In this document: positions 12,493 through 54,660 of the stretch, piece by piece
Layout of the letters: each line of letters begins with the position of its first letter
Position numbering within the stretch: position 1 is the stretch's first letter
From: Desulfuromonas sp.
GTDB taxonomy: Bacteria; Desulfobacterota; Desulfuromonadia; Desulfuromonadales; SZUA-401
Direction: 5' to 3'
Assembly (NCBI GenBank): GCA_002869605.1
Contig: PKUI01000170.1
Coordinates: forward strand, 7,007-71,006
DNA length: 64,000 nt
The notes under the pieces: model-generated
What the model saw: the letters and a program-made list of their open reading frames with translations, nothing else
What the model was told of the DNA's origin: nothing
Databases searched by the model: none
Translations under genes and position numbers: made by a program

Positions 12493-14759
12493 TCCGGCAC
12501 CTCCTCGCCTTGCGGAGAGCCCAGCACCAGCACCGCCGGTAACACCACCAGGTCGCACAGCAGGGCTGCGATCAACGTCCCGCCGACCAGCAGCGAAAAG
12601 TAAATCGTCGGCCAGAAACTGCCGAAACAGCCGACCCAGAAACCGAGCGCCAGCACCAGCGAGGAAACGGTCAGGGCACGCCCGGTACCGGTGGTGGTTG
12701 CGAATACTGCACCGCGCGGCTCTCCGCGGAACACCCGGCGGTAGTTCACCAGGTAGTGGATGGTGTCATCGACGGCCAGGCCGATCACCACCGCTCCGAT
12801 CATCGCCGTACCGGTACTCAAATCGATGCCGGCCGCCCCCATGACCCCGGCCGCCCAGATGATCGGGATTAGGTTCGGGATCATCGACAGCAACGTCAGC
12901 CGCAGGGAGCGAAGCAGCACCAGGATGCTCAGCATCACCAACAGCAGCGACAGCGAGAAGCTGCGCAGCATATCGACCACCAGGTTGTTGGAATCGACCG
13001 CCACCTGATAGAAGCTTCCGGTCGCCGTCAGTTGATAGCGACCGCCCCCGAGTCCTGCCGCCATGCCGAGAATCTGCTGCGCCAGGGTAGCGGTCTGCTG
13101 ACTACCGAGTATCGGCAGCCGCACGCTGAACCGCGCGACCGTGCGCTCGGGTGTGAGGAAGCGGTTCGAAAGCTGCGGATCATTAGACATCGCCAGCAAC
13201 TCGAGGAGCACGTCCAGCTCGTCCTGATTATCGGGCAGCGCCAGCTTTTCCCCACCGGATTCGGCCCGCTGCAGGGGGCGCAGCAACGTCAGGATCGACA
13301 GTGCCCCCGCGACCTGCGGCTGCTGCTCGATTTGCTTCACCAAAGCTTCAAGCGTGCGGTAGTCTGCGAGCTCCGTCAACGGTTTGCCGTCGCGCCGTTC
13401 GAACATGAACTCGAGGGTATTGACGCTACCGAGCTGACGATCGATCGAGCGCGTATCAATCGCCAGCGGCGTATCCTTTTTAAGAAACGCGACCAGGTTG
13501 GTATTGTTGCGTATCGTCGGGATAAAAACCGCGCTAACTGTCAACAGCAGTAGAGTCACCACGATAATTCCCTGGGGATACCGTAGCGTCAGCCGGGCGA
13601 TCCACTCCAGGATACGCTTGAGAAACCCCAGCCCTTCCCGCCGCCGCACATCGACGATCAGCCGTTGAAAACTGAGCCACACCGGAACCAGCAGCATACC
13701 GACCACGAACGCCAGGCTAACGCCGAGCGCTGCGAAAAGCCCGAAGTGACGCACCGCGGGAACGCTGCTGATGGTCAGCGAAGCTAGCCCCAGGGCGGTG
13801 GTCAGCGAGGTAAACAGGCACGGCGTGAACAGCTCGCCGACCTTGCCGGCCAGCAGCGGCAGACGCTGAGCGTCATCCCCCTGGAGCTGCAACCAGCCAT
13901 TGTAGAGATGTACGCTGGTGCTGACCGACAACACCATGATCACCGGCGGCAACAGCGCGGTAATGGTGTTGAGCTCCAGCCCGGCCAGCCCGTAGCAGCC
14001 CATGGTCCAGACCAGGCTGATAGCGGTCACCGCCAGCGGCAACAACAGCCCCGACGGATGTCGGAAGATCAGTACCAGCAACAGCGCCAGCATCGCAACC
14101 ACCAGCGGCAGGACCACCCGTTGATCGCGATCGATGAAACGGGCCACATCGTTTTTCTGCACTCCGACGCCGGTCAGGTGCAACTCGGTGTGCCCGGCAT
14201 ACTCCTGCTGCAGAGCGCGCAGAGACTCGATCAGCAGCCGGCGGTAATCGTGGTCATGACGCCGGTCCTCCAGTTCGATCAGCAGGACGGCAGTGTGCAG
14301 GTCGGCTGAAATCAGCAGCCCTTTGAACTGTGGATTGTCATCGAGGATGGCCTGCAGTGCTGCCGCATCTGCAGAGTCGTTGAACAACGGGTGCGGTTCG
14401 GCACCCCACCTCCCGGGAACCAGGTGTTGCGCGTTGGCCAGACTCCAGACCCGGGTCACGCCGTCGAGACCGGCGACTCTCTCGGCAAGGGAGCTGAGCA
14501 GTTCACGCCCGGATTTTTCCAGCAGCCGGGTATGCCCGACACTCAGCAACAGCTGCTCGTCGTTGCCGAACAACTTCAGGAAACGGTCATAGTCGGCAAG
14601 CCGGGCAGCATCGTCCGCCACCATGGAGCGATTATCCTGCTCGATACCGACGTGTGCGGCCGGAATGGCCAGAAGCGCCGTGAGCAGAAAAAGGCCAAAC
14701 AGCACCAGCACTCGCCAGCGCCCCAGCAGCCTCATCAGAAGTGCTTCGACCGCACGCAT
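12489..14759 (-). CDS. MMPL/RND-superfamily lipid exporter
   Basis: A 756-residue membrane protein with the duplicated MMPL layout: helix 1, large periplasmic domain, five helices, repeated. HpnN-type hopanoid and mycobacterial lipid exporters belong here. Relay Asp residues are visible in the C-terminal half (GLAVDDTIHYLVNYRR). The start at 14759 lies 2 nt after the polyketide synthase stop; a longer upstream frame reads into that gene and is rejected. Most likely it moves the polyketide lipid out of the inner membrane. A paralogue (54661) serves the aryl-polyene cluster. Confidence 0.85.
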   Translation of the reverse strand: MRAVEALLMRLLGRWRVLVLFGLFLLTALLAIPAAHVGIEQDNRSMVADDAARLADYDRFLKLFGNDEQLLLSVGHTRLLEKSGRELLSSLAERVAGLDGVTRVWSLANAQHLVPGRWGAEPHPLFNDSADAAALQAILDDNPQFKGLLISADLHTAVLLIELEDRRHDHDYRRLLIESLRALQQEYAGHTELHLTGVGVQKNDVARFIDRDQRVVLPLVVAMLALLLVLIFRHPSGLLLPLAVTAISLVWTMGCYGLAGLELNTITALLPPVIMVLSVSTSVHLYNGWLQLQGDDAQRLPLLAGKVGELFTPCLFTSLTTALGLASLTISSVPAVRHFGLFAALGVSLAFVVGMLLVPVWLSFQRLIVDVRRREGLGFLKRILEWIARLTLRYPQGIIVVTLLLLTVSAVFIPTIRNNTNLVAFLKKDTPLAIDTRSIDRQLGSVNTLEFMFERRDGKPLTELADYRTLEALVKQIEQQPQVAGALSILTLLRPLQRAESGGEKLALPDNQDELDVLLELLAMSNDPQLSNRFLTPERTVARFSVRLPILGSQQTATLAQQILGMAAGLGGGRYQLTATGSFYQVAVDSNNLVVDMLRSFSLSLLLVMLSILVLLRSLRLTLLSMIPNLIPIIWAAGVMGAAGIDLSTGTAMIGAVVIGLAVDDTIHYLVNYRRVFRGEPRGAVFATTTGTGRALTVSSLVLALGFWVGCFGSFWPTIYFSLLVGGTLIAALLCDLVVLPAVLVLGSPQGEEVPE

Positions 14760-19209: not shown

Positions 19210-20530
19210 GGGCCTGTAAGGGATTTTGTGTAAATGGCCCTGTCGGTCAGTAAGTCGGCATCCTGTCGCCGAAGATGATCGTAAACTGATTCAGTGCCGA
19301 TTTCCAGTTCCGGATCGGCATTGTCCATTTCTTCTCGATATTCTGTAGCGCAAGGTAGAGCAACTTGAGCATCGATTCGTCGTTCGGGAACGAACCTCGG
19401 TTCTTGGTCACCTTCCGTAGCGACATGTTGACCGATTCGATGGCGTTAGTCGTGTAGATCGCTTTGCGGATGTCCGTGGGGTACGAAAACAGCGGGGTTA
19501 GTCGCTCCCAGTTGCGTCGCCAAGAACGGCTGATCGTCGGGTGAGTGTCGTCCCACTTGACCGAGAACTCGTCCATGGCGATCTCGGCCTGCTCGATGGT
19601 AGGAGCCGAGTAGATGGCTTTCAGATCGGTGGCCACGGCTTTGCGCTGCTTCCACGAAACGTAGTTCAGGCTGTGTCGCACCATGTGCACCAGGCAGAGC
19701 TGAATTTGGGTATCTGGAAAGACCGACTCGATCGCTTCCGGAAACCCCTTGAGACCATCGACACAGGCGATGAAGATGTCCTTCACGCCCCGGTTCTGCA
19801 ACTCGGTAACGACCTGGAGCCAGAACTTAGCCCCCTCGGTTTCGGCGGTCCACATCCCGAGAACTTCCTTGAGGCCGTCGAGGTTGATACCGATGGCCAA
19901 GTAGACCGCCTTGTTGATGACTCGACCGTCCTGCCGCACTTTGATCCGGATGGCATCGAGATAGACGATGGGATAGACCTCGTCCAGGGGTCGATTCTGC
20001 CAGAGGGTGATTTCTTCCTGTACGGCCCGAGTCACCTGAGAGATCAGCGTCGGTGAGACCTCGACGCCGTACATCTCTTCCAGATGGGCTTGGATGTCAC
20101 GGGTGGTCATGCCTCGGGCATAGAGGGCGATGATCTTGTCGTCGAAGCCGGTGAAGCGGCTCTGCCCTTTGGGGAGAATGACCGGTTCGAAGGTTGCTTC
20201 CCGGTCGCGGGGCACGGTCAAATCAAGGTTGCCGAACTCGCCCTTGATGCGTTTCTGGTAGCTGCCATTGCGGGCATTGGTGGTTTTCTTGTCGGCGGTG
20301 GCGTTCTTCTCGTAGCCAAGATGTTCAGTCATCTCGGCCTGCATCGCCCGCTCCAGCAGTTGCTTGGTGAGTTGCTTGAGCAGCCCGTTCTCCCCGATGA
20401 GGTCTTCAGGATTCTTGTAATCCTTCATCAGCGAGTCGAGCAGGTCTTTCGGGATGGTCATCAGTCGTTCCTCCAGTGGTTACGGGTTGTAACCGACTGA
20501 GACCATTTACACAAAGTTTTTTACAGGCTC
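19210..20530. mobile_element. IS256-family insertion sequence
   Basis: Terminal inverted repeats of 28 bp (19210-19237 and 20503-20530) match at 23 positions, beginning G(G/A)GCCTGTAA and ending TTTGTGTAAATGG. They enclose one transposase gene. The 8-bp flanks on the two sides (CTTAGGAC and CACTTGCT) do not match, so no target duplication is seen. Its GC content is clearly higher than the surrounding island. Confidence 0.9.
19247..20461 (-). CDS. IS256-family transposase (mutator type)
   Basis: A 404-residue DDE transposase of the Transposase_mut family. Candidate catalytic acids lie in VYLDAIRIK, ACVDGLKGFPEAI and NAIESVNMSLRK, the usual family contexts. The N-terminal region (EMTEHLGYEK) is the typical DNA-binding part. 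Full length with no frameshift, so likely active. It fills the IS between its two inverted repeats. Confidence 0.95.
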   Translation of the reverse strand: MTIPKDLLDSLMKDYKNPEDLIGENGLLKQLTKQLLERAMQAEMTEHLGYEKNATADKKTTNARNGSYQKRIKGEFGNLDLTVPRDREATFEPVILPKGQSRFTGFDDKIIALYARGMTTRDIQAHLEEMYGVEVSPTLISQVTRAVQEEITLWQNRPLDEVYPIVYLDAIRIKVRQDGRVINKAVYLAIGINLDGLKEVLGMWTAETEGAKFWLQVVTELQNRGVKDIFIACVDGLKGFPEAIESVFPDTQIQLCLVHMVRHSLNYVSWKQRKAVATDLKAIYSAPTIEQAEIAMDEFSVKWDDTHPTISRSWRRNWERLTPLFSYPTDIRKAIYTTNAIESVNMSLRKVTKNRGSFPNDESMLKLLYLALQNIEKKWTMPIRNWKSALNQFTIIFGDRMPTY

Positions 20531-25548: not shown

Positions 25549-26736
25549 TCAGATCTGAAAGTCGATACCTATTTGGCGGGTTTCCTTCTCGGGCAGTTTC
25601 AACACTTTTTCGGCTAAATACTCACTCCACTCGATTAACGCCTCCTGCATTTTGTCTTCATACCGATACCTGTTGTAGATAGCTGTCACACCTTGAGGGG
25701 TATGATTCAATACTCTGCCGATTACCTCGTTTGAATATCCTATCCTCGCAATACCTGTTGCAGCAGTTCTTCTTAGATCATGGGGCCTGAAATACTCTAT
25801 CCCCATGTGCTCTATTCCCCGCCTGTGTAGTGCATGAGCCATCGACAAGGAATCGATTGGTTTATCATCCCACCGAGTCTTAATGACGTATTCTTCGCTA
25901 TTCTCACCTATTAACTCCAAAGCCAATGCTGACAGGTACACTTTCTGAGTCTTACCGTTCTTCACTCGCTCCCCAGGTATGGTCCACCAGCTACCGTTGA
26001 TCTCAGATCGACTCATTTTAGCGACTTCACCTGGACGTTGACCTGTCACCAAAATCAACTTCATTCCCACCTTGAGCTTTTCGTACATTGAACTTTGATC
26101 TAAGCCGTACCAGAACTTTCTAATCTCCTCATCACTCAGCACTCGATCTCTTGCCCTATTCTTGGCTAATTGTTTCACGCCATTGATAGCAGAGAACTCG
26201 AGCAGGTCTCTCTCTACTGCAAAATTAAACATCTTCTTGATCAACCTGAGCGTGTTGTTTGATCCGATTGGTGCTCCTCGGTTGTACATTCGCTCTAGTA
26301 ACTCAATGACATCCTTTTTCCTGATTTCATCTGCGTGTCGATCTTTCCAGTAAGGAAGTACATCTTGATTCAATATTCGAATATCTTCTCTAAAGCTCTT
26401 CTTCCTTGGTTTTGCCCATTTGTCCAGATATACCTCTGCAAGCTTCCCTACGGTCAATTTCGAGTCATTGGGAGGTGGTTCTGCCAGAGGGTTCACCACC
26501 TGATCGACTAGATATTGTTTTTCACGTGCTCTTTTCCGGGCTTCTTTGATTGAAACTGCAGGGTATTTACCTAGATCAATCCAATTCTGTTGTTGCTCCC
26601 ATCGGTAAGTGAATTGCCACTTCCTCATACCTTTGGGAGAGATAATAATGTAGAGTCCGTCACCTTCAGTTTTGATCTTCCGACCCTTCTCGGGCAATGG
26701 AATATTCATGATCAACCTGTCGGTAAACTTCTCCAC
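25549..26736 (-). CDS. tyrosine recombinase integrase (P4/DUF4102 type)
   Basis: A 395-residue integrase with an N-terminal DUF4102-like domain (KIKTEGDGLYIIISPKG, FTYRW), a SAM-like core-binding domain, and a catalytic domain showing Arg (TGQRPGEV), HxxR (HDLRRTAATG), His (VLNHTP) and the nucleophile Tyr in AIYNRYRYEDK. This family typically inserts at tRNA 3' ends. The gene lies about 140 bp from the right attachment copy, distal to the intact tRNA, whereas P4-type integrases usually sit next to the intact tRNA. It appears full length and potentially functional. Confidence 0.93.
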   Translation of the reverse strand: MEKFTDRLIMNIPLPEKGRKIKTEGDGLYIIISPKGMRKWQFTYRWEQQQNWIDLGKYPAVSIKEARKRAREKQYLVDQVVNPLAEPPPNDSKLTVGKLAEVYLDKWAKPRKKSFREDIRILNQDVLPYWKDRHADEIRKKDVIELLERMYNRGAPIGSNNTLRLIKKMFNFAVERDLLEFSAINGVKQLAKNRARDRVLSDEEIRKFWYGLDQSSMYEKLKVGMKLILVTGQRPGEVAKMSRSEINGSWWTIPGERVKNGKTQKVYLSALALELIGENSEEYVIKTRWDDKPIDSLSMAHALHRRGIEHMGIEYFRPHDLRRTAATGIARIGYSNEVIGRVLNHTPQGVTAIYNRYRYEDKMQEALIEWSEYLAEKVLKLPEKETRQIGIDFQI

Positions 26737-27421: not shown

Positions 27422-27805
27422 ATGTTGCAATCTCTCTCAGAGAAATTCTTTATCGCTGCAATCCTGTTGTTGCTTGGAGTCTCTCCCTCCTTTGCAGCCG
27501 TTGCGGCTGGGCCAGACATCCAAGGGATCACCTTCGAAGATGTCAATTACGATGGTCTCGATGATGTACATATCCGGATCGCCTTTTCTGAAGAGGACAT
27601 CGAAAACTACGACATCCTTCAGACCAGCGATGGTAGCTATGTCACCGCCGCAGACCAGCCTTTGGCTGAGAAGGATTGGGACTTCAAGATCCTCGACGTC
27701 AACGAAGATGGCTACATCGATGTAGTCATTTCGGACGATGAAAGGGATACCTTCTACCTGAATAATGGTGACAACACCTTTAACATGAGACATTTGGATT
27801 ACTAG
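27422..27805 (+). CDS. secreted Ca-binding-like repeat protein (127 aa)
   Basis: Signal peptide (about 1-26, LLLLGVSPSFAAV) followed by a short acidic domain. It has two Asp-rich loops of FG-GAP/dockerin type (DVNYDGLDDVHI and DVNEDGYIDVVIS) that would fit Ca2+ coordination. Ribosome binding site AAGGAGGT. It lies just upstream of the radical SAM genes in the same direction and may belong to that system as an exported partner. No specific family assigned. Confidence 0.7.
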   Translation: MLQSLSEKFFIAAILLLLGVSPSFAAVAAGPDIQGITFEDVNYDGLDDVHIRIAFSEEDIENYDILQTSDGSYVTAADQPLAEKDWDFKILDVNEDGYIDVVISDDERDTFYLNNGDNTFNMRHLDY

Positions 27806-27871: not shown

Positions 27872-28873
27872 ATGGCGAATGTCTTATTGACCCAAAGGTG
27901 TGTGCGCTCCTGCCCTTACTGCTTTGCAAAAGAGCACATGGAGGATTCGGTTGACCAGGAACTGTCCTGGGACAACCTGTTTTATATTGCTGATTTTTTT
28001 GAAAGTTCGGGTGTGCGCCACATTTCACTCCTGGGGGGCGAACCGACCCTCCACTCGAACTTTGTCCAGTATGTGACCTACCTGCTCCAACGAAATTTTC
28101 ATGTCACGGTCTTCACCAGTGCGATCATGTCCACTGATAAGCTTTATCAGCTGGAACAACACCTGAAGCAGTATGGTCCCAACCAGCTCTCGTTTGTGTG
28201 CAACCTGAATGAGCCTTCGATCTCTTCTGATGAGGAGAACCAGAAACAGATCAAGTTCCTTAAGACGTTCGGGCCCTACACAACCGCCAGTTTCAATATT
28301 TATCAATTGGACTTCGACCTAAACTTCCTTGCTGATTATATTGTCAAGTACAAGATGAACCGTTCCATCCGTTTTGGTCTGGCCCACCCGATCCCCGGGC
28401 AAGAAAATGTCTGTATCGTACCGGAGGATATGCCCGAGCTGTCGAAACGGCTGTTCTCATTCGCACCCTTGCTAGAAAAAGAAAATATCTCGCCGAATTT
28501 CGACTGCGGCATGCCACTCTGTATTTTCAATGACGAGCAGCTCGGACGTCTCTTCCGCATGACCAAAGGGGAGCTCCGATTTGGATGCGGCCCAGCAATT
28601 GATATCGGGCCGGATATGTCGGTCTGGTCCTGCTTCCCGCTACATGCCCTGGAAAAGAAGTCCCTCTTCGAATTCGACAAATTTGACGATATCGCCAAAT
28701 ATTTTTCAGAATATCTAGGCGAGTTAAAAAAAGACAAGAATTCCGGCATCTTCAGCGAATGCAGTACGTGTAAGGAACTTATCAACAATAAATGCTCGGG
28801 TGGCTGCGTGGCTCACTACCTGTCCAGCAACCCGCAGGTTCTTACGGGGAAAAAACGAAAGTCGACCGCATGA
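27872..28873 (+). CDS. radical SAM/SPASM enzyme, candidate peptide maturase 1
   Basis: A 333-residue radical SAM enzyme. The [4Fe-4S]/SAM motif CxxxCxxC is at C10, C14 and C17 (CVRSCPYC), followed by the GGE-type motif (LLGGEPTLH). The C-terminus has a SPASM-type cluster region (CGPAID, SCFPLHA, then CSTCKELINNKCSGGC). SPASM enzymes typically modify ribosomally made peptides. Its stop overlaps the next gene (ATGA), and three such genes run in tandem before the Tyr-rich repeat precursor at 30950. Substrate is inferred from context. Confidence 0.88.
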   Translation: MANVLLTQRCVRSCPYCFAKEHMEDSVDQELSWDNLFYIADFFESSGVRHISLLGGEPTLHSNFVQYVTYLLQRNFHVTVFTSAIMSTDKLYQLEQHLKQYGPNQLSFVCNLNEPSISSDEENQKQIKFLKTFGPYTTASFNIYQLDFDLNFLADYIVKYKMNRSIRFGLAHPIPGQENVCIVPEDMPELSKRLFSFAPLLEKENISPNFDCGMPLCIFNDEQLGRLFRMTKGELRFGCGPAIDIGPDMSVWSCFPLHALEKKSLFEFDKFDDIAKYFSEYLGELKKDKNSGIFSECSTCKELINNKCSGGCVAHYLSSNPQVLTGKKRKSTA

Positions 28874-29742
28874 ATCAACCGATGCTTGTTATACCGAATA
28901 GTGAATCCCTCTTTTCGAAATTGCGGGGGCAGTCGCTGATTGTCCGCTGTTTCCGCGAGGAAGAAATTCAAGGCATCTCCCAGGCAGCACAAGGGAATTT
29001 TCATCTGAAGGCCGTATGGCTTTCGAAGGATGCCCCGCTTTCTTCCGCGCGCCTTCACGAGAGTTGGGCCGATGTTCCTGTCGCTTTCGAAGTGACAGGG
29101 GTCGGGGATATTCAAACCGTAATTAACATGTGCCCGTTTCTGCGCGGTCATAATATCCGCATCCTAATTCCGGGAACCTCTCAGGAGAATTTCGTTGGCC
29201 TGCGGATCCTGTCTTCCGCCGGAATCACCCCGGTGGTGACCTTGCCTTCACAAGGGATTGACTGGGAGGCGCTGAACGACCTTCTACACTACGATGTCTA
29301 CGCCAGGGTGCCCCATGCTCCGATCGAGCCGTTTGCCTATGCCGTTGATCGCTTCAGAAACAGGCAGGCCCTCGACCTTGGCCCGGTATATTTCGACAAT
29401 CCGGAAGCTTATCTGCATGTCGATGAGCAAGGGCATGTTGCGACCTCGCAGAAGGCCTTGGAGAGCGGAACATTTCTCGGGCATATCGACGACGGGCTCG
29501 ACAAGATATGCGCTTCCGAAGCCTACTATGCGGGCCTGAAAGGGTGGCGACAGCACTTCCTTCAGGATGACGGCTGTGCCTACTGTCCAGGGTGGCGACT
29601 CTGCATGGGGCGTTGTTCGGACTATCTCGACCAGACCCCTGAACAGTCCCCCTGTCAGGGCTTTTTTGAGAGTTTGTTCGAGGCAGTCGAGTTTGCCCAG
29701 AATAGACAACAAGAGAATGGGCCGCGCTTATGGCAGTACTGA
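28870..29742 (+). CDS. SPASM-like protein lacking the radical SAM motif
   Basis: A 290-residue protein starting at the ATG overlapping the previous stop. The N-terminal part looks like a radical-SAM-type barrel but has no CxxxCxxC. The C-terminus carries a Cys-rich SPASM-like motif (GCAYCPGWRLCMGRC plus a final Cys near QSPC). A radical SAM enzyme paired with a SPASM-only protein recalls the GeoRSP system described in Geobacter-type genomes. It may be a non-catalytic partner binding auxiliary clusters or the precursor. It overlaps the next radical SAM gene by 13 nt. Confidence 0.72.
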   Translation: MNQPMLVIPNSESLFSKLRGQSLIVRCFREEEIQGISQAAQGNFHLKAVWLSKDAPLSSARLHESWADVPVAFEVTGVGDIQTVINMCPFLRGHNIRILIPGTSQENFVGLRILSSAGITPVVTLPSQGIDWEALNDLLHYDVYARVPHAPIEPFAYAVDRFRNRQALDLGPVYFDNPEAYLHVDEQGHVATSQKALESGTFLGHIDDGLDKICASEAYYAGLKGWRQHFLQDDGCAYCPGWRLCMGRCSDYLDQTPEQSPCQGFFESLFEAVEFAQNRQQENGPRLWQY

Positions 29743-30821
29743 TTTTCAAACCACTCGAAAAGTGCAACTCCAATTGCGTCTACTGCGACACCATTACCAA
29801 AAAGCAGGAGAAGGTAATGGGGTACGACCTCTTGGAGCTCTTATTTAAGCGCATCGACGAATATCTGAAGAGTGCTCCCGGTGAAAACTTGGTCCTGACC
29901 TGGCACGGCGGTGAGATGTGCCTGCTCGGAGCCGAATATTTCAAGAAGGCCTATGAGCTGCAAAGGGAGATTTGCGCTGAGACGATGGGGCGAATCTCCC
30001 ATGAGGCGCAAAGCAACCTGACCCTGATCGACCAAGAGATCATTGACGTTTTCAAGCTCTTCGGCATGGGCTCCTTCGGTACGAGCTTTGATCCGCTGCC
30101 AGGCATTCGTGGCTACGGCGCCAAACGGGATTCCAAAACCTATAATCAGAATTTTTTCCGCGGAGTTGACCTGCTGGAGAAAAACGGTATGGGCTGGGGC
30201 CCTATTTATACGGTTCATCGCAAGGCACTTGACTGCGCCCCCAAGGTTTTTCACTACCTCGTCAATTTAAACCCGAGCGCTCCGCCGAAATTCAATCTCG
30301 TCCGCGCCTACGGAAATGAAGAGAGCGAGTTTGCCATAACCGAAGAGGAATATGCCGATTTTCTCGGGGAGCTGTTTCAGATCTATTGGCCTCATCGGGA
30401 CAGGTTTGGGTCGGTTCAGCCGTTCCAAGGCTATATCGACAACATCCAGAACCCGCAGAGCGGTCTAGTGTGCGACATGATGGGCAACTGCGCCAACCAA
30501 TGGCTATTCGTTGGCCCTGAAGGCGAGGCCGGGCACTGCGGCGTCGCCGGCGATTACAAGCAGTTTGAATATGGAAACATTCAGGATTTATCCTTCCAGG
30601 AGATCCTGTTTGATCCGAAACGGGACCTTTTGAAACAACGTCAGAGCGAGCTGCCCCATGGAGAATGTGGCGACTGCAGGTACTGGCGAGTCTGCCATGG
30701 CGGATGCCCGGTGTGTGCCCAGCTGCAGCACGGAACACCATTGCAGCGATCCCCAAGCTGTGTTTCGACCAAAATGTTTCTTGAAAAGTACTTTGAGCCG
30801 ATCACCGGGTTGCGCTTCTGA
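29730..30821 (+). CDS. radical SAM/SPASM enzyme, candidate peptide maturase 2
   Basis: A 363-residue radical SAM enzyme of the anSME/SPASM group. Its cluster motif is C12, C16, C19 (CNSNCVYC), it has the WHGGEMCLLG motif of sulfatase-maturase-like enzymes, and a C-terminal SPASM domain (CDMMGNC, HCGVAGDY, GECGDCRYWRVCHGGCPVC). It overlaps the SPASM-like gene and lies 128 nt before the Tyr-rich precursor gene. It is the best candidate for the enzyme acting on that repeat, since SPASM enzymes make C-C, C-S or ether links on peptides. Confidence 0.9.
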   Translation: MAVLIFKPLEKCNSNCVYCDTITKKQEKVMGYDLLELLFKRIDEYLKSAPGENLVLTWHGGEMCLLGAEYFKKAYELQREICAETMGRISHEAQSNLTLIDQEIIDVFKLFGMGSFGTSFDPLPGIRGYGAKRDSKTYNQNFFRGVDLLEKNGMGWGPIYTVHRKALDCAPKVFHYLVNLNPSAPPKFNLVRAYGNEESEFAITEEEYADFLGELFQIYWPHRDRFGSVQPFQGYIDNIQNPQSGLVCDMMGNCANQWLFVGPEGEAGHCGVAGDYKQFEYGNIQDLSFQEILFDPKRDLLKQRQSELPHGECGDCRYWRVCHGGCPVCAQLQHGTPLQRSPSCVSTKMFLEKYFEPITGLRF

Positions 30822-30949: not shown

Positions 30950-31441
30950 ATGAAAAAGAAAGTTTTGACTAGCGCAGAAGCGGAAGTCCAGCAAATGGGC
31001 TACACGCGTCGCCAGGCCTTGAAGAGAATCGCCAAGGCAGGTACCGTTGTCGCAACCGGCGGGCTCGGAGCAACGCTGGCCGCCTGTGGCGGAGGGGGAG
31101 GCTATAGTGATTACGCCAATGTCTACACTGACACCTATAGCGATACCTACACGCCATACAGTAACAGCTATACCAATTACTATGTAACCTACACCAATTA
31201 CTACGTTACTTACAGTGACACCTACACTAATAACTACACCAATTATTATGTTACCTACACAAACTACTACGTAACCTACACCAACCAGTATACAAATTAC
31301 TATGTAACCTATACTAACCAATATACAAATTACTACGTAACCTATACTAACCAGTATACAAATTATTATGTTACCTATAGCTACAACAACAACTACACTA
31401 ATTATTACGTAGTATATACAAATTATTATGTATCTTATTGA
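30950..31441 (+). CDS. Tyr/Thr/Asn-repeat Tat lipoprotein, candidate radical-SAM-modified precursor
   Basis: A 163-residue protein with three parts: a hydrophilic leader (1-19); a twin-arginine segment (TRRQALKR, R20-R21) with a hydrophobic run ending in lipobox LAAC (Cys46); and an exported part using only Gly, Tyr, Ser, Asp, Ala, Asn, Val, Thr, Pro and Gln. Residues 47-163 hold 41 Tyr. There are nine copies of the heptad TNYYV(T/V/S)Y and 18 Tyr-(Ser/Thr)-(Asn/Asp) triplets. Start follows GAGGAGGTG; a terminator follows. It lies between radical SAM/SPASM genes and a carbamoyltransferase. Low complexity, a fixed motif and maturase neighbours fit a modified peptide or surface lipoprotein. I know no named family for it. 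Confidence 0.85.
   Translation: MKKKVLTSAEAEVQQMGYTRRQALKRIAKAGTVVATGGLGATLAACGGGGGYSDYANVYTDTYSDTYTPYSNSYTNYYVTYTNYYVTYSDTYTNNYTNYYVTYTNYYVTYTNQYTNYYVTYTNQYTNYYVTYTNQYTNYYVTYSYNNNYTNYYVVYTNYYVSY
31172..31438 (+). repeat. tandem coding repeat, heptad TNYYVTY and 33-bp units
   Basis: Codons 75-163 are built of TNYYVxY heptads. Three consecutive 33-bp units (31280-31312, 31313-31345, 31346-31378) encode the identical 11 residues TNQYTNYYVTY and differ only at third codon positions. Confidence 0.9.
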
Positions 31442-31610: not shown

Positions 31611-33239
31611 ATGATTCTCTCGCTGAATTTTAATCATGATGGCAGCGGTGTGATTTTGAATCAGGGACACATCGCCGCTTATGTGAATACTGAACGTTTT
31701 TCACGGATCAAAAAACACCCCGGCCTCCGCGAAGAAGACCTCGACGAACTCTTTCGCCAGGCCGGGGCCACTATCGATGACATCTCTTTTGTCATCCTGT
31801 GCAACCATGGGATTAATTACCCCGAGTTCCTCGAAGCTTTTGGTGATAAGTACACGGATGTTCCGTTTGACTACAAACTGAGTCCTGACTTTAAACGTGT
31901 TGAAATGCGTGGCAGGACGATTGACTGCGCTTACAATCCTGACCATTTCCTCTGTCACGCGGCAGCCTCCTACTATTTTTCTCCGTTTAATTCGGCCCTC
32001 ACGTTCGCCTACGACCCGATGGGAAGTGGCGCCTATATCGGGGTGGAGAATCGCCTCTCCCCCTTCCCGCTACCGGTAACGCGGGTTGGAGCTATTTACA
32101 GCGAAATCTCCAGGGCCATTGGTTTCGGGGGGCTGTTTGGTGCCGGGAAAACCATGGGGCTTGCCCCGCTCGGAAAAGCCGCGGCCGGCCTTACTCCTGC
32201 GCTGTTGGAATTTGCCCAGAACCCTCTGCGGGTCGATGATATCACTCCGGTTATCGAGGAGATCCTTGACCTGGCCGCCAAGCGGGAGATTATCGTCAAG
32301 GGACATAAGGGAAAATCCTGGAACGCCGCCTCCGCCTACATCGTGCAGGAGTTTCTTGAGACCGTCTTGAAGCATGTTCTCGAACAGCTATTTCGAGCCA
32401 ATCAGCGGAATAAAATGGCTGGCAAGTTGGCGGCAAATCCGAACCTGTGTCTCTCTGGAGGGACGGCACTTAATTCTGTGGCGAATGAGAAGGTGTTTCG
32501 AGCTTCAAACTTTTCAAATTTCTATGCCCATCCCGCCTGCGGAGATGATGGCACCTCGATTGGTGCGGCCCTGTATTGGTGGCACCATGTGTTAGGCCAT
32601 CCGAAAATACCCAGGCAGAATTCCGAGGCGATGTATTCGGTCGCATCTTACAGCTCGACATCTATAAAGGATGCGATCCGTTCATTTGAAAACCGTGTCG
32701 AATCTTGGTCTTCGACTGATTATATTGCCGAGACAGCACAGTATATTTCTGAGGGGAAGATTGTCGGATGGTTTAACGGTGCAAGCGAAATTGGCCCACG
32801 TGCCCTAGGAAATCGTTCGATCCTGGCTGATCCTCGTCGTGCTGATATGTGTGACAAGTTAAACAAAAAGGTCAAACATCGCGAGAGCTTCCGACCTTTT
32901 GCCCCCTCGGTTCTGTTAGAAGATGCACAAGGCTGGTTCGATGCCGTTGAGAGCCCCTACATGCTGCGCGTGGTAAGAGTCAAGAGTCGAGAAATTCCGG
33001 CCGTCGATCATTTTGGATCGGCCAGAATCCAAACGGTCTCTGCGCAGGATAACAGCTCATATCATGCCCTGATCAAGGAGTTTAAGGACATCACTGGTGT
33101 CCCTGCAGTTCTGAATACTTCCTTCAATGTCGGATTTGAGCCGATTGTCGAAACGCCCGAAGATGCCCTGAAGACCTTTGTTGACTCAGAACTTGATTAT
33201 CTGGTTTTCCCTGGAATCATCGTTAAGAAAGCTCCTTAA
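31611..33239 (+). CDS. NodU/CmcH-family carbamoyltransferase
   Basis: A 542-residue carbamoyltransferase. It has the N-terminal kinase-like fold signature (NFNHDGSGV) and the C-terminal YrdC-like/carbamoyl-transfer region (GASEIGPRALGNRSILADPR, then FRPFAPSVL). The family transfers carbamoyl from carbamoyl phosphate, via carbamoyl adenylate, to hydroxyls of sugars or antibiotics (NodU, TobZ). It is followed 2 nt later by a glycosyltransferase gene, so the acceptor is probably a sugar, perhaps on the repeat lipoprotein or another surface glycan. Confidence 0.9.
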   Translation: MILSLNFNHDGSGVILNQGHIAAYVNTERFSRIKKHPGLREEDLDELFRQAGATIDDISFVILCNHGINYPEFLEAFGDKYTDVPFDYKLSPDFKRVEMRGRTIDCAYNPDHFLCHAAASYYFSPFNSALTFAYDPMGSGAYIGVENRLSPFPLPVTRVGAIYSEISRAIGFGGLFGAGKTMGLAPLGKAAAGLTPALLEFAQNPLRVDDITPVIEEILDLAAKREIIVKGHKGKSWNAASAYIVQEFLETVLKHVLEQLFRANQRNKMAGKLAANPNLCLSGGTALNSVANEKVFRASNFSNFYAHPACGDDGTSIGAALYWWHHVLGHPKIPRQNSEAMYSVASYSSTSIKDAIRSFENRVESWSSTDYIAETAQYISEGKIVGWFNGASEIGPRALGNRSILADPRRADMCDKLNKKVKHRESFRPFAPSVLLEDAQGWFDAVESPYMLRVVRVKSREIPAVDHFGSARIQTVSAQDNSSYHALIKEFKDITGVPAVLNTSFNVGFEPIVETPEDALKTFVDSELDYLVFPGIIVKKAP

Positions 33240-33241
33240 TC

Positions 33242-35245
33242 ATGATTACCCTATCAGTCAACTCGAGGACAGTCGTAAGGCACCTGCCACCCAATACCCC
33301 CACTCAGATTCTTATTGCGCGTCACGGTGGAATGGGAGATAGAGTCCAATTCCAGGCGATTGTGGAAGACGCCCTCCAGAAAAGAGGGGCCCAGTTTAAA
33401 AGAGTTGTCGCGGCCATCCCTCACCACGCAGGTGATTATGATGCCCATTCCTACACTTCATCTCCCGACGAGATCTGGGTTGTTCCCCAGGCCAAGGATG
33501 TTGACAAATTTCTGAAAGAATTCACGACCTTGGCTCGCACCATTCTTCCGGAGGTCGAGCAGTTTGAATTTGTCATGTATGACAGGCCTGCCGACCCGGA
33601 AGACCTTGAGCGGCATGAGATCAATTTTCTTGACCACCATGAGGTTCTAACGGGGTTGGCTGCAAAAGATATCTACCCGGTCTTTACCGTTGGGGTTGAT
33701 GCATACTCGAGGGCCGACACCTTACTAAAGGGCGCTGGAACCTCTGATCCAACCGGACCTTTGGTGGCGATGCATTGTCGGCTACAGTGCCCCCAGACGC
33801 CATCTGGTGGAGTTAAAAACCCGGACCCCGAAGACTTTATTTCAGCGATACGCTTTCTCCGTGAAAACTTAAAGGCCCGAATTGTTCTTTTAGCTGGCGA
33901 TGAAGACTTGCCCGCCGAGCTTGAGAGCCTGGTTCATTTGCGTGTTCCGCAAGACCAATCTTTGCAACTCCCTGCTGCGATCCTTTCCTGCTGTGATTTG
34001 TTTATTGGAGGGGACTCGGGACCGATTCATCTTGCTGCTGCCGTTGGCCTCCCGTCGATCATAATTAGGCAAAACAACCCCTCCTGGATTCAGGGCCCTT
34101 TCTGCCCAGATTCTATGGCAACGCATATCCTTGCTACTTCGACCAACGAGCCGGAAAGGGGGTTGAGGTTTTCCCCCGAGAACCTCCTGGAGACGGCTCA
34201 ACTCATGCTTAAAGATGAGGAGATGCCTAAAAAGAAAGGAAAAGGCAAGAAGAAATCTGCGCCGAATGATGAAGTTGAGATCTGCTACCTGATGTTCAAT
34301 CACGGCTGGGAAGAGTTTCTTGTCCAAAGAAAACGCCCCAATCTCAATGCAGAGTACAAAACCTCACCACCACAGCGGCAATACCTGAAATATTTGCGCA
34401 ATTCCCTTGAAACCTTGGTGCTTTTTGGAGCGATCAAGAATTTCCATGTGAAAATTAGAGTTCTGGAATTGCTCGAGAACAACTTTTCCCATGAGGTCGA
34501 GGCTTTGCTGCAAGCAGTTCTGCCGTCAGGTACGTTCAGTATTGATAGAATACCCCTTGCACGCGTATCGCATCTGCTTGATTTTGAAATGAATCAGCCG
34601 CAGGGGGGGCACATATCCCCCAATAAAATTCATGAGTGGCTTATATATCAGGCGATTATCGAAGGGGAACGGGAATCCGTTTTTGTGGTCGATGTGGATA
34701 CCCTGTTTCTGGCTCCGGGATTTATTGAAAACATCGTATCTGTACTGAAAAGCTCGAAAGATTTAATGCTGGCCTCTTTTGTCGACGGTTCAAGATTTGT
34801 TAACAGGGAGCCGGGTGGCTTTGTGATTCGGGATAGATTGCACTCGGTATTTTTGGCGATCAATCGTAAAAAACTCCAGTCGCAGATTGATCTTCAGAAA
34901 GACATTGATCTGCAATTAAATTTTTTCGATCGCGTGAAATTAATTAGATCGGACGTTGTTCGGAAGTATTACGAGGAAACCTGTCATTCTGATTGTTTGT
35001 CGTTTCTTACGGAGCAAATTTTCCAGTTAAACAATGGTCGATCCTTTCTGAACTTAAACCATATATCTCCTTCTTTTTTTGAGGGGGATGCCCTGACGAT
35101 TATCAATAAGGACTTTTTCCACGGCAAATACAGTGATAGAAGTATTTTACAGGGCCTCGATAATCACCTCGACAAAGGACCAGTTACCCGTAAAAACCTG
35201 ACCCGAGCGATGAACTTTGTTTCAAGCCTACCCGTAAACATATAG
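33242..35245 (+). CDS. two-domain glycosyltransferase (GT9-like plus GT-A-like)
   Basis: A 667-residue fusion. The N-terminal half (about 1-330) resembles heptosyltransferase-type GT9 enzymes (ARHGGMGDRVQ; GGDSGPIHLAAAVGLPSI). A Lys-rich linker (KKKGKGKKK) leads to a C-terminal domain with a DxD-type nucleotide-sugar motif in VVDVDTLFLAPGF. It could add two sugars. It is paired with the carbamoyltransferase and is the last gene of the block in this direction. Acceptor unknown; the Thr/Tyr-rich lipoprotein is one candidate. Confidence 0.75.
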   Translation: MITLSVNSRTVVRHLPPNTPTQILIARHGGMGDRVQFQAIVEDALQKRGAQFKRVVAAIPHHAGDYDAHSYTSSPDEIWVVPQAKDVDKFLKEFTTLARTILPEVEQFEFVMYDRPADPEDLERHEINFLDHHEVLTGLAAKDIYPVFTVGVDAYSRADTLLKGAGTSDPTGPLVAMHCRLQCPQTPSGGVKNPDPEDFISAIRFLRENLKARIVLLAGDEDLPAELESLVHLRVPQDQSLQLPAAILSCCDLFIGGDSGPIHLAAAVGLPSIIIRQNNPSWIQGPFCPDSMATHILATSTNEPERGLRFSPENLLETAQLMLKDEEMPKKKGKGKKKSAPNDEVEICYLMFNHGWEEFLVQRKRPNLNAEYKTSPPQRQYLKYLRNSLETLVLFGAIKNFHVKIRVLELLENNFSHEVEALLQAVLPSGTFSIDRIPLARVSHLLDFEMNQPQGGHISPNKIHEWLIYQAIIEGERESVFVVDVDTLFLAPGFIENIVSVLKSSKDLMLASFVDGSRFVNREPGGFVIRDRLHSVFLAINRKKLQSQIDLQKDIDLQLNFFDRVKLIRSDVVRKYYEETCHSDCLSFLTEQIFQLNNGRSFLNLNHISPSFFEGDALTIINKDFFHGKYSDRSILQGLDNHLDKGPVTRKNLTRAMNFVSSLPVNI

Positions 35246-44812: not shown

Positions 44813-45541
44813 ATGAACCCACCACACATCGCACTCGTCACCGGCGCCAGCAAAGGGATCGGGGCAGCCATCGCCATCGACCTGGCCCGCAACGGCTTTG
44901 ACATCTGGCTCAATTATCGCAGCGACCAGCAGGCGGCCGAGCAGGTCGCCGCAACCATCCGCGACCTCGGCCGCAGTTGCACGCTGCTCCCTTTCGACGT
45001 CGCGGACAGCGAGGCGGTCAAACAGGCCCTCGCACCGCTGCTGGAAGAACAGACCCCCTACGCACTGGTCAACAACGCCGGGTTTGCGCGCGACGGCCTG
45101 CTGGCGCTGATGCCCGAACAGGACTGGCAGGATGTCCTCGCGGTACACCTCGGCGGCTTCTTCAACGTCACGCGCGCGATCATGGCGAACATGCTCAAAA
45201 AACGCCGGGGACGCATCGTCAACATTGTTTCGACCTCCGGCGAGAGCGGGGTTCCCGGGCAGACGAACTACTCGGCCGCCAAGGCCGGACTGATCGGCGC
45301 CACCCGCTCACTGGCCATGGAAGTAGCCAAGCGCAAGATCCTGGTCAACGCCGTCTCGCCCGGCTTCATCGCCACGGAGATGATCGACGACCTGCCGATG
45401 GAGCAGATTCTCCCCTCGATCCCGCTCGGACGCGTGGGGCAACCGGAAGAGGTTTCGGGGCTGGTGAGCTTCCTCTGCTCGGAGCAGGCAAGCTACATCA
45501 CCGGCCAGGTCTTCTCCGTCAACGGTGGCGCCTACATGTAG
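44813..45541 (+). CDS. 3-oxoacyl-ACP reductase (FabG/ApeQ-like)
   Basis: A 242-residue short-chain reductase with cofactor motif TGASKGIG, NNAG, and catalytic Tyr/Lys in NYSAAKAG. It reduces 3-ketoacyl-ACP in each extension cycle. It opens the polyketide/fatty-acid-like cluster and corresponds to ApeQ in aryl polyene loci. Confidence 0.92.
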   Translation: MNPPHIALVTGASKGIGAAIAIDLARNGFDIWLNYRSDQQAAEQVAATIRDLGRSCTLLPFDVADSEAVKQALAPLLEEQTPYALVNNAGFARDGLLALMPEQDWQDVLAVHLGGFFNVTRAIMANMLKKRRGRIVNIVSTSGESGVPGQTNYSAAKAGLIGATRSLAMEVAKRKILVNAVSPGFIATEMIDDLPMEQILPSIPLGRVGQPEEVSGLVSFLCSEQASYITGQVFSVNGGAYM

Positions 45542-45610
45542 GACAGAGGCCCAGGCCGTTACCCGACAGTCAGATTGCCACACTTTCAGTCACAAGGACC
45601 TTCAAGCTTT

Positions 45611-46831
45611 ATGCACAGAATCGCCATTACCGGAATCGGCATCGTTTCCTGCCTCGGCAGCGACAAGGAGAGTGTCAGCGCATCTCTGCGCAAAGGACGC
45701 TCCGGGATCGTCATCGATCCCAGGCGTCAGGAACTCGGTTTTCGCAGCCCGCTCACCGGGGCCGTTCAGGGCTTCTCACCCCCCGCAGAGCTGTCGCGCA
45801 AGCAGCGCAAGAGCATGCCCGAGTTTGCCGTACACGCCTATGCCGCGGCGACGCAGGCGATCAATGACGCCGGGCTGGAGCGGGAAGAGATCCAAAATCC
45901 GCAAAACGGCCTGATCTTCGGAGTCGACTCCAGCTGTCTGGCCGCCATCGAGCAGGTCGACACCCTGCGCGAGAAAGGCGAAACCCGCCTCATCGGCAGC
46001 GGCCAGATCTTCCGCTCCATGACCAGTTGCGTCACTATGAACCTCAACACCCTGCTGCAGACCAAAGGGGCCTGCTGGTCGATCAGCTCGGCCTGCTCCA
46101 GCGGCGGGCATGCCATCGGACAGGCCGCCGACCTGATCGCGCTCGGCCGCCAGGAACGCGTCATCTGCGGCGGCGCCCAGGAAATCAACTGGGAATCGAT
46201 GTGCAGCTTTGACGGCCTGGGGGCCTTCTCCATGGGAGAAAACGGCCCAGGAAAAGCCTGCCGCCCTTTCGACGCCGCGCGTGACGGGCTGGTGCCGAGT
46301 GGCGGGGCGGCCGCGGTGGTTCTCGAGCGCTACGACCTGGCCGAATCGCGCGGCGCCACGATCCTCGGCGAAATCAGGTCCTACGCCTTCTCTTCGGACG
46401 GCGAACACCTCTCGGTCCCAAGCCATGGTGGCTTGCAGCGCGCCATGCGCGAGAGCCTGGAACGTGCCGGCCTGAAACCGGGCGACATCGACTACCTGTG
46501 TGCCCACGCCACCTCGACGCCGGCCGGCGACGCCGCCGAGGCCATGAACATCAAAGCGGTATTCGGCGCGGACACCCCCCATGTCTCCTCGCTCAAGTCG
46601 ATGACCGGACACGAACTCTGGATGTCGGGAGCCTCCCAGGTGGTCTACTGCACCCTGATGGCCCAGGGTGGCTTTATCGCCCCCAACATTAACTTCGAGT
46701 CCCCCGACGAACAGACCGAAGGGCTGCGCATCGTCACCGAAACGATCCCCTCGCCGCCGCGGCGGGTCCTGTGCAACTCGGCGGGATTCGGCGGCACCAA
46801 TTCCTGCCTGGTCCTAGACTTCGAACGATGA
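45611..46831 (+). CDS. beta-ketoacyl synthase (aryl-polyene type) 1
   Basis: A 406-residue KS with catalytic Cys162 (ISSACSSGGHAIG), the two His motifs (CAHATSTPAGD and SMTGHELWMSGA) and a normal length. It condenses the growing chain with malonyl-ACP. Start at 45611 gives the usual MHRIAITGIGIVS. Its stop overlaps the FAD-oxidoreductase gene. Confidence 0.92.
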   Translation: MHRIAITGIGIVSCLGSDKESVSASLRKGRSGIVIDPRRQELGFRSPLTGAVQGFSPPAELSRKQRKSMPEFAVHAYAAATQAINDAGLEREEIQNPQNGLIFGVDSSCLAAIEQVDTLREKGETRLIGSGQIFRSMTSCVTMNLNTLLQTKGACWSISSACSSGGHAIGQAADLIALGRQERVICGGAQEINWESMCSFDGLGAFSMGENGPGKACRPFDAARDGLVPSGGAAAVVLERYDLAESRGATILGEIRSYAFSSDGEHLSVPSHGGLQRAMRESLERAGLKPGDIDYLCAHATSTPAGDAAEAMNIKAVFGADTPHVSSLKSMTGHELWMSGASQVVYCTLMAQGGFIAPNINFESPDEQTEGLRIVTETIPSPPRRVLCNSAGFGGTNSCLVLDFER

Positions 46832-48312
46832 ACTACGACTCGATCATCATCGGTGGCGGCATCTCGGGGATGACCGCAGCACTGCTGCTCGCCAAACACG
46901 GCCAGAAGGTGGCCCTGCTCGAGCGTTCGAGCCAGCTCGCCCCGATGGTGCGTGGCTTCAGTCGTGACGGCCTCTACTTCGATACCGGCTTCCACTATGC
47001 CGGAGGCCTTGGCGACGGCGAGGTTCTCGACCGCTTTTTTCAGCACCTCGGCCTGGCGGACAAGTTCGTCAAACAGCCCTACGCCGAGAACGGCTTCGAC
47101 CTCTTTCGAACCCAGGACGCAATCCCGGACTTCGCCTTCCCGTGCGGTTACGCCAGAACCGAGGCACACTTCACGGAGCGTTTTCCGCAAGAACGACAGG
47201 CCATCCAGAACTACCTGGAAGCCCTGCGCACGGAGTGCCGCAGACTCCCCTACCTCAACCTCGAACTTTCCCTCGACGAACAACAGCTGATGGGCGTCCT
47301 CCAGGGCCCCTCCGTGCAGCAGGTTCTCGACGGGCTGGGTGTCACCCCCCCCTTAAGGCAGCTGCTGACGCTACATGCCCTGCTCTACGGCGTTCCTCCC
47401 GAACAGATGCCCTTCACGCTCCACGCCAGCGTGGTCGCCCCCTATATCGAGTCAACCTACGGTATCGAGGGGGGCGGGCGACAGCTGGTGCGCGCCTACA
47501 GCGAGCGGCTTGCCGAGCTCGGGGTCGCTGTTTTCTGCAGGACAACCGTCAGCCGGATTGAACTCGGCAGCAGCGGCCAGGTCACCGCGGTCCAGACCGA
47601 GAAAGGGGAGCGATTCACCTGCACCCGGTGCATCGCCAGCGTCGCGCCCCGCGTGCTGCTCGAACTGGTCCCGGAGAAAGCGTTTCGTCCCGCCTACCGC
47701 AAACGACTTGCCAACCTCAACGAGACCCCATCGGCACATTTGCTGTTTGCCGCCTGCGAAAACGACAGCCTGCTGGAAAAGCGTAACCTGTTCCTTGACG
47801 GCAACGGCGTCCCGTTTACGGATCTCAGCAAAACACCGCTCGCGAAACGTACCCTGTATCTGGCCAGGGCACATGCCGAACCGGGCACCACACCACGTCA
47901 CGGGCTGATCATCATCTGCCCCGCCGACCAGGCCGAAACAGCCGAATGGCAGAAAAGCCGACGCGGCCAGCGCCCCGCCGACTACGTCGCCTTCAAGCAG
48001 CAGACCATGGACGCACTGACCCGGCGCGTGAGCGACACCTGCCCGGAACTCGGTACCCTGACCCCCCTGGCCGGCTCCACACCGCTGACCATGGCCGACT
48101 ACGCCGGCAACCCGGGTGGCGGCATTTATGGTGTCAAACACATGGTCGGACAGTACAACCCCCAGCCGGCAACCCGCATCAAGGGACTGATGCTGGCCGG
48201 CCAAGGGACTGCAGCACCTGGCATCCTCGGGGCGGCCCTCTCGGCCTACCTCTGCTGCGGCCACCTGCTGGGACACGACACCCTTCGCAACGAGGTTAAG
48301 CAATGCAGTTAA
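46828..48312 (+). CDS. FAD-dependent oxidoreductase (CrtI/retinol saturase-like)
   Basis: A 494-residue flavoprotein: N-terminal dinucleotide-binding motif IIIGGGISGMTAALLLAKHG, the FDTGFHYAGG substrate-side motif, and a C-terminal FAD motif (KGLMLAGQGTAAPG). The family includes phytoene desaturases and saturases that act on conjugated chains. Within a polyene cluster it could adjust chain unsaturation. Start at 46828 overlaps the previous stop; it overlaps the next KS gene by 10 nt. Confidence 0.87.
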   Translation: MNYDSIIIGGGISGMTAALLLAKHGQKVALLERSSQLAPMVRGFSRDGLYFDTGFHYAGGLGDGEVLDRFFQHLGLADKFVKQPYAENGFDLFRTQDAIPDFAFPCGYARTEAHFTERFPQERQAIQNYLEALRTECRRLPYLNLELSLDEQQLMGVLQGPSVQQVLDGLGVTPPLRQLLTLHALLYGVPPEQMPFTLHASVVAPYIESTYGIEGGGRQLVRAYSERLAELGVAVFCRTTVSRIELGSSGQVTAVQTEKGERFTCTRCIASVAPRVLLELVPEKAFRPAYRKRLANLNETPSAHLLFAACENDSLLEKRNLFLDGNGVPFTDLSKTPLAKRTLYLARAHAEPGTTPRHGLIIICPADQAETAEWQKSRRGQRPADYVAFKQQTMDALTRRVSDTCPELGTLTPLAGSTPLTMADYAGNPGGGIYGVKHMVGQYNPQPATRIKGLMLAGQGTAAPGILGAALSAYLCCGHLLGHDTLRNEVKQCS

Positions 48313-49529: not shown

Positions 49530-49783
49530 CCGAACAGGAAATCATTGAGCGGATCAACAGCTCGCTAGCCGAGGAGTTCGAACTCGACCCGGCCGACATG
49601 ACCCCCGAGGCCAACATCTACGAGGAACTTGAGCTTGACAGCCTCGACACCGTCGACATGGTCATCGTCCTCGAAGGGGCCTTCGACTTCAAGATCCGCG
49701 AAGAGGAAGCGATTCGTGAAATTCGCACCCTTGGCGACATTCACCGTTTTGTGATCGAAAAGAAGCGTAACCTGGACGCTTAA
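49526..49783 (+). CDS. acyl carrier protein
   Basis: An 85-residue ACP with the phosphopantetheine Ser39 in LELDSLDTVDMV. It is the only ACP gene visible in this cluster, whereas aryl polyene loci usually carry two. Confidence 0.93.
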   Translation: MTEQEIIERINSSLAEEFELDPADMTPEANIYEELELDSLDTVDMVIVLEGAFDFKIREEEAIREIRTLGDIHRFVIEKKRNLDA

Positions 49784-49808
49784 GCCTGCTGTGCCTGACC
49801 GGATCGAC

Positions 49809-51913: not shown

Positions 51914-51969
51914 ATAGATCAAAACCACTCCGCCAACAAGGCGGGTTCAAGAAAGAGAGAAACAAGATC

Positions 51970-53556: not shown

Positions 53557-53571
53557 CCCGGAAGGACCTGC

Positions 53572-54653: not shown

Positions 54654-54660
54654 TTTGCCT

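Follow-up and report, generated by a model that had tools for sequence, protein, structure and literature searches.

The window analysed here, a 64,000-nucleotide stretch of Desulfuromonas sp. DNA, most likely encodes a member of a new class of Tat-exported, radical-cross-linked, Tyr-rich proteins, as judged from its sequence and that of its relatives. The protein, precursor A, is a predicted Tat-exported lipoprotein, and its tail is the likely substrate of an adjoining radical SAM module that would join Tyr residues to the residue two positions further on (i to i+2) by a C-C bond, a reading to which we assign a probability of about 0.6. The features concerned, all on the forward strand, are the following.

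27422..27805, + strand: small FG-GAP protein (PF13517), with a start that resembles a signal peptide by eye
27872..28873, + strand: B, second radical SAM protein of 333 residues, with CxxxCxxC and C-terminal Cys (PF04055, family alignment)
28792..29742, likely start 28903, + strand: C, radical-SAM-like partner with a C-terminal Cys cluster and no CxxxCxxC (alignment, AF2 model)
29730..30821, + strand: D, radical SAM/SPASM maturase of 363 residues with an invariant CxxxCxxC (PF04055, SPASM; Cys invariant in the alignment)
30950..31441, + strand: precursor A, with the Tat-type leader RRQALKRIA, the lipobox LAAC46 and a Tyr-rich heptad tail (sequence; leader and tail common to relatives)
31076..31087, + strand: lipobox Leu43-Ala-Ala-Cys46 (sequence)
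31172..31438, + strand: TNYYVxY repeat region, nine heptads with short spacers (sequence)
31611..33239, + strand: carbamoyltransferase (PF02543, PF16861; 53% identical partner in locus L003), which we take to be of the TobZ/NodU type
33242..35245, + strand: large protein with a GT9 (heptosyltransferase-type) segment (PF01075; partial relative in L003)

The leader of precursor A occupies residues 20-28 of a 163-residue open reading frame, and the twin Arg, the hydrophobic stretch and the lipobox Cys of a Tat lipoprotein are all present. Past Cys46 the tail comprises 117 residues of only ten types (Y41 T25 N19 V11 S7 G5 D4 Q3 A1 P1) and contains nine TNYYV(T/V/S)Y units; an initial annotation of this DNA had described the frame in these terms, and each of its counts (ten residue types, 41 Tyr in 117, nine heptads) proved right. 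A Pfam search with the precursor returned no family at E 0.1, and its single NCBIfam match at that threshold was weak (NF058595, 14 bits against a cut-off of 37). For the 25 precursors that make up our precursor profile, Pfam gave no match at E 0.01 and the NCBIfam matches were limited to two weak ones, each for a single member (HxsA4, 2.2e-4; formate_TAT, 7.2e-4), and with these two exceptions the earlier statement that the protein belongs to no named family holds in both databases. AF2 predicted no fold for the precursor (pLDDT 36), so we draw no structural claim from its model. Scans of genome-contig and viral-contig collections for two adjacent TNYYVxY units gave zero matches; the exact heptad is therefore rare, and related loci were reachable only via the maturase D. 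When 5.8 billion proteins were searched by shared words, four shared the leader and a TNYYVxY-type tail with the window precursor.

The same annotation placed three radical SAM/SPASM-type genes in front of the precursor, a description that stands for B and D and needs amendment for the middle gene, which lacks CxxxCxxC and is radical-SAM/SPASM-like in its model. D contains, besides its CxxxCxxC, later Cys that are also invariant in the alignment. The best NCBIfam model for B is the viperin family (40.5 of 180 bits for the window protein; 9 of 27 members at E 1e-10), and window B scores 26.2 of 370 bits against HxsB and 20.6 of 267.9 bits against HxsC. C proteins have four invariant Cys, all of them C-terminal, and most begin at the residue encoded at 28903, the likely start in the window. 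The AF2 model of C (pLDDT 88.6) is closest to the SPASM structures 5wgg (CteB) and 5v1s (SuiB), at query TM-scores of just 0.48-0.50, and a structure search with this model gave one match at E 0.001 or better. The C profile aligns to the C-terminal part of D (probability 71), and the only NCBIfam model matched by C is the general SPASM domain, in 1 of 30 members, with window C below its cut-off. The FG-GAP protein has zero relatives among the 34 D loci described below, and its link to the module is uncertain. Between 19000 and 35250 the GC content is low (0.45 at 19-27.4 kb, 0.49-0.51 over the module and 0.41 in the precursor, with flanks at 0.61-0.62); this stretch also holds a Mutator-family transposase (19247-20461) and a phage-type integrase (25549-26736) and is likely a mobile island. 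A plasmid search with D at E 1e-40 gave no match. Elsewhere in the window, a large cluster (44813-64000) includes a ketoacyl synthase (48303-49529), an aromatic amino acid lyase (51970-53556) and a B12-binding radical SAM gene (61632-62987), and by gene content presumably resembles an aryl polyene or dialkylresorcinol pathway.

Relatives of the module were collected through D, for which 178 homologues were found at E 1e-10. A profile was built from window D and 42 homologues (taken from the 120 of these 178 that were listed), and of the 169 loci that it matched, at one genome per species, the best 80 were fetched; these comprise 34 orthologues (39-53% identity; L001-L032, L035 and L036) and 46 distant maturases (23-29%), the latter serving as controls. 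Judged by their record titles, all 34 orthologous loci derive from MAGs or bins and span ten phylum-level groups: Bacteroidota (with Ignavibacteria and Chlorobi), Nitrospirae, Nitrospinales, Spirochaetaceae, Elusimicrobia, Deltaproteobacteria, Armatimonadetes, Gemmatimonadetes, Alphaproteobacteria and Kiritimatiellae. The full module together with a precursor candidate is present in eight of these groups, the remaining two being Alphaproteobacteria, whose locus (L028) has D and a precursor only, with B and C absent, and Kiritimatiellae, whose locus (L030) is cut by a contig end and shows no precursor. Four loci fetched later (L092-L095) contain B, C, D and E in every case, E being a GT9-like protein of about 290 residues (PF01075) that mostly lies directly after D; C is weak in L092 and L093 (60 and 66 bits). 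In a tblastn census of 39 loci (the 34, the later four and the window; >60 bits, within 6 kb of D), B was found in 37, C in 36 and E in 23. Two other entries, L082 and L086, are L027 and L017 again. In L023 and L024, D is immediately followed by another D-like maturase (truncated at the contig end in L023), and the precursors of these two loci have the stretch YYSQYCSGRGSxYYYSYYCSxRY in common. Upstream of B, L015 and L026 encode proteins of ~400 residues that look similar by eye, the one in L026 without a Pfam match at E 0.01.

Open reading frames adjoining D in these loci carry a leader, [RK]RxAxKR, and a Tyr-rich tail, and the residues that follow Tyr in these tails point to the chemistry. 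Thirty tails totalling 2,321 residues (Tyr 39%, Ser 23%, Asn 11%), from which the truncated tail of L004 was dropped, were compared with shuffles that ignore repeat structure. Asn or Asp occupies Tyr+2 in 239 of 880 cases against a shuffle mean of 140, and is raised neither at Tyr+1 (130) nor at Tyr+3 (82) against that same mean, while Tyr itself stands at Tyr+3 in 516 cases against 379 shuffled. Ser is raised at both Tyr+2 (318 vs 192) and Tyr+1 (274 vs 192), and Thr is raised at Tyr+1 (42 vs 26) and low at Tyr+2 (17 vs 26). In 22 tails Asn/Asp is commoner at +2 than at +1, with the reverse in five (L010, one of L018, L023, L024 and L036). In nine tails that are not simple repeats (hand-picked as low in repeats; L012 and L013 are near relatives), the residue at Tyr+2 is polar in 71 of 78 cases against a background of 0.50; other offsets range from 0.41 to 0.59, and none of 2,000 shuffles was as high as Tyr+2. 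The 25-sequence precursor profile, scored on the best-matching 7,979 candidates without gene context, finds at least 46 homologues. In 44 further homologues, at least one of which (P0127) is a locus precursor again, the leader was present throughout by a slightly looser pattern, partly by construction since the profile held the leader; most of their tails are YSSYSS-like, with values of 0.76 at +2 and 0.68 at -2, and such tails separate offsets poorly because a period of 3 raises other offsets too. The window tail has an acceptor-type residue at i+2 for 28 of 40 Tyr and Val for 10 of 40, and its counts of Asn/Asp at Tyr+2 (20) and Tyr-2 (19) show that it indicates no direction on its own, because the heptad makes Asn/Asp equally common on either side. 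The polar Tyr+2 of the family would correspond to a triceptide-type Ar-x-x pattern, so that among the products which the initial annotation had considered, a cross-linked peptide appears favoured.

It is possible, though unlikely, that the radical SAM module modifies the tail Tyr otherwise than by an i/i+2 cyclophane, through Tyr-Tyr biaryl or ether formation, oxidative decarboxylation or dehydrogenation, hydroxylation or epimerisation. Adjacent Tyr residues are frequent (YY, YYY, with nine YYV in the window), D matches DarE, which forms an ether link (PMC9055067), and the chemistry of radical SAM enzymes on peptides is diverse (PMC9062424). However, a reaction of Tyr only would not need the constraint on Tyr+2 that is seen in the tails without a simple repeat.

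The i/i+2 cross-link reading brings the system closest in motif to the triceptides (three-residue cyclophanes), whose enzymes (XncB, OscB, MscB, YxdB and YhhB) are SPASM maturases, as D is by its PF04055 and SPASM matches. In triceptides, too, position i+2 of an aromatic-x-x motif is Asn, Asp, Ser or Arg, Tyr-x-Asp being one of the combinations, and known cross-links join i and i+2, among them Tyr-Asp (YxdB), Trp-Asn/Asp and Phe-Ser (MscB) (PMC11002830). Unlike triceptides, the proteins described here carry a Tat leader, in some cases a lipobox, and as many as dozens of motifs, as well as a radical-SAM-like partner, a second radical SAM protein and a GT9 in addition; furthermore, window D stays below the corresponding cut-offs (GrrM 75/310, AmcB 74/425, YhhB 52/445, XyeB 33/450 and FxsB 31/370 bits). 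In fact, it reaches no equivalog cut-off among the 25 of 44 NCBIfam matches listed, where its best models, all below cut-off, are anSME, DynA, DarW and DarE. All 43 D members match the DynA, DarE, AmcB, GrrM and YhhB models, with window D below the cut-off for each. The model scoring highest for window D among the matches listed, anSME, is reached at 124.1 of 349.45 bits. By sequence, anSMEcpe (4k36/4k37) is also the best solved relative of D (E 1.6e-30), but its CDF stretch is aligned with C-G-x in the D family (profile alignment to 4k36/4k37). The Asp of this stretch, next to a SPASM Cys, is the catalytic base of anSME. The dynobactin and darobactin maturases give the next-best scores (DynA 119.5, DarE 109.3 and DarW 113.7 bits), but their cut-offs (450, 650 and 650, respectively) are unreached. 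The products of these maturases are short peptides and not exported repeat proteins. Assignment of D to anSME, DynA, DarE, GrrM or HxsB was rejected on cut-offs, and in the case of anSME also on the residue aligned with its catalytic base. The HxsA/B/C (His-Xaa-Ser) and TvgA/B (TVGG) systems resemble the present one in pairing a repeat precursor with dedicated radical SAM enzymes (PMC9062424); however, the His-Xaa-Ser motif is a different one, the window tail lacks His and window D scores 54.5 of 370 bits against HxsB. Among radical SAM-matured ribosomal products, the Tat leader, the pseudo-radical-SAM partner, the maturase-glycosyltransferase fusion and the long Tyr polymer appear to be unprecedented in our searches. 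A literature search of titles and abstract starts, with most subscription papers and bioRxiv outside its coverage, returned nothing on Tyr-rich Tat-exported radical SAM substrates, which leaves absence from print unproven.

Glycosylation had been a further candidate of the initial annotation, and both the GT9-like neighbour and the cases in which it is fused to the maturase lend it support. E has weak matches to PF01075 and to the LPS heptosyltransferase II structure 1psw, and in L015, L022, L025 and L035 it forms the C-terminus of a D-E fusion (Pfam was checked on the L025 fusion and on the E protein of L029). In place of E, the window and L003 contain the carbamoyltransferase and another GT9-like protein, cut by the contig end in L003; the window protein with the GT9 segment is unmatched by the E family of other loci. 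A precedent for E is TibC of the BAHT family, a heptosyltransferase that acts on an exported surface protein (PMC4358343), although E is a putative protein heptosyltransferase from sequence and, unlike TibC, is fused to a radical SAM enzyme in four loci. Given known protein heptosyltransferases of this kind, the frequency of E and its fusions, and the abundance of Ser in the tails, the product could be conceived as mainly an envelope polymer rich in Ser, Thr and Tyr and coated with sugar, in which case the radical SAM enzymes would act on the sugar or on the glycosyltransferase. We regard this as improbable, since 16 of 39 loci gave no E, including some with long flanks (L005 and L032) that keep a precursor candidate and D, and since D is nearest to peptide and protein maturases.

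The association between precursor and maturase D was examined both within the loci and across whole genomes. A rule demanding the leader and then at least 6 Tyr in 30 residues, written after the family loci were seen, is passed in 26 of 34 D loci and in 0 of 46 control loci (793 kb), while a scan for Tyr-rich windows by themselves (9 Tyr in 30 residues) picks up 20 of 34 D loci and 2 of 46 control loci; one chance open reading frame each in L003 and L020 had been dropped before candidates were counted. Three of the loci missed by the rule have a leader-type candidate, namely L004 (tail truncated where the contig ends), L028 (Tyr 13%, with GYGVSGDYSDSG repeats) and L035 (short tail), and in L016, L026, L027 and L030 contig ends cut near the module. 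The remaining miss, L031, has only a leaderless 54-residue peptide that retains Tyr-x-Asn/Asp as YEN, YRD, YTN and YTD. This peptide (10317-10478 of a Rikenellaceae MAG) is encoded downstream of D, the next gene is subtilase-like by eye, and it is possibly a released small-peptide version of the system. Two of the four later loci pass the rule, and the other two fail on one leader residue and have the leader and a Tyr-rich stretch followed by an Lcl_C domain. An additional C-terminal domain, either a Peptidase_S74 chaperone or Lcl_C, is found in the precursors P0132, L092 4275-5138 and L093 6160-7125, which suggests that larger surface or fibrous proteins can include the Tyr-rich part as a module.

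Among 247 Bacteroidota genomes, D was found in four (E 1e-100) and the precursor profile in three (E 1e-5), all of them D-positive; in the fourth D-positive genome (G258, the source of L027) the locus is cut at the contig start. Among 245 Nitrospirota genomes, D was found in five and the precursor in the same five. The profile had been built with the precursors of G015, G011 and G013 among others, and with these genomes excluded, all 5 precursor genomes among the other 489 are D-positive. In the phylum of L003, 1 of 24 genomes contained D, and in the phylum of L005, 1 of 149; both genomes were already known. The system is thus rare, at about 1-2% of genomes in the Bacteroidota and Nitrospirota samples. 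The initial annotation had stated that its claim would fall if homologues were widespread without radical SAM neighbours; this was not seen in the 492 genomes, and its proposal of a probable new class of modified precursor is well supported by the many phyla in which relatives possessing the leader and a Tyr-rich tail adjoin these genes. Precursor A might alternatively be an ordinary, unmodified Tyr-rich structural or adhesive lipoprotein that neighbours an unrelated radical SAM cassette by chance, and the C-terminal Lcl_C or Peptidase_S74 domains of some relatives, which occur on surface or fibrous proteins, would suit it; that is highly improbable, being contradicted by the presence of D in every precursor genome and by the contrast between family and control loci under the precursor rule. 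The window repeat is itself under protein-level selection. Codon differences among its nine heptads are 115 synonymous and 15 non-synonymous, and third positions account for 129 of 152 base differences, so that the repeat is maintained as a protein; in addition, a degenerate pattern of two adjacent units has 3 matches in the window and 0 in 100 dinucleotide-preserving shuffles. A slippage artefact or non-functional frame, which tandem DNA of low complexity might suggest, has a negligible chance of being correct in view of these codon differences, the ribosome site ahead of the gene (GAGGAGGTG-TT-ATG) and the leader common to relatives.

With regard to export, a TatC gene adjoins the precursors of L005 and L018 and a TatA gene that of L029, and searches for TatC were positive in 25 of 33 family genomes (L020 lies in the same genome as L019) and in 246 of 247 genomes of the Bacteroidota sample. 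TatC was not found in any of the three genomes with a KRxAxKR leader (L006, L007 and L011), two of which are small (1.1 and 1.9 Mb), and was found in 21 of 25 with RR or CR leaders; the probability of such a split by chance is 0.011 for a pattern noticed post hoc. The genomes without TatC and without a KR leader are those of L012, L013, L015, L030 and L036 (5 of the other 30); for all eight genomes in which TatC was not found, completeness was not given. Persistence of the leader motif without TatC suggests that it has a second role as a recognition site for the maturase. A Cys lies 16-20 residues past the leader motif, as a lipobox, in 11 of 28 precursors. In L005, where tatC follows the precursor, the frame directly behind tatC (12357-14057) joins a TatB-like N-terminus (by eye; no Pfam TatA_B match) to a radical SAM domain.

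Taken together, these data are consistent with a pathway in which the leader RRxALKR(I/M)A likely serves as both Tat signal and maturase recognition site. D would be the core cross-linking enzyme, as argued by its SPASM family, its pairing with the precursor and the L028 locus, and the fixed gene order suggests roles for the other two, C as a radical-SAM-like partner without catalysis of its own and B as a further radical SAM enzyme that works on this chain. Each modified Tyr would be joined to the residue two on, chiefly in Tyr-x-Asn/Asp/Ser, by a C-C bond, turning the tail into a chain of small rigid rings. Sugar is probably added as well, by the GT9-like E or, in the window and L003, by the carbamoyltransferase and the other GT9-like protein; Tat would then export the stiffened product, with anchoring in the envelope where a lipobox is present. 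Extended to its full form, this reading describes a ribosomal poly-cyclophane class in at least eight phyla, in which a Tat-signal leader presents a Tyr-rich tail of up to ~200 residues to a complex of radical SAM, pseudo-radical-SAM and radical SAM proteins, and dozens of Tyr(i)-(i+2) C-C links and sugars yield a stiff aromatic envelope rod; we offer this wider picture tentatively, at slightly under even odds.

The radical SAM cross-linked peptides with which the system was compared are short products. If the reading is correct, the chain proposed here, cross-linked over some 35-200 residues, preceded by a Tat leader (in part with a lipobox) and located in the envelope, would amount to a new kind of biological material, and stiffening of the chain in the cytoplasm would provide a natural reason for its export by Tat. 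The system offers testable pairs, such as D with a precursor alone (L028), the D-E fusions, and leaders with and without Tat, and it unites some 180 mostly unnamed maturases with many Tyr-rich proteins annotated as 'hypothetical'.
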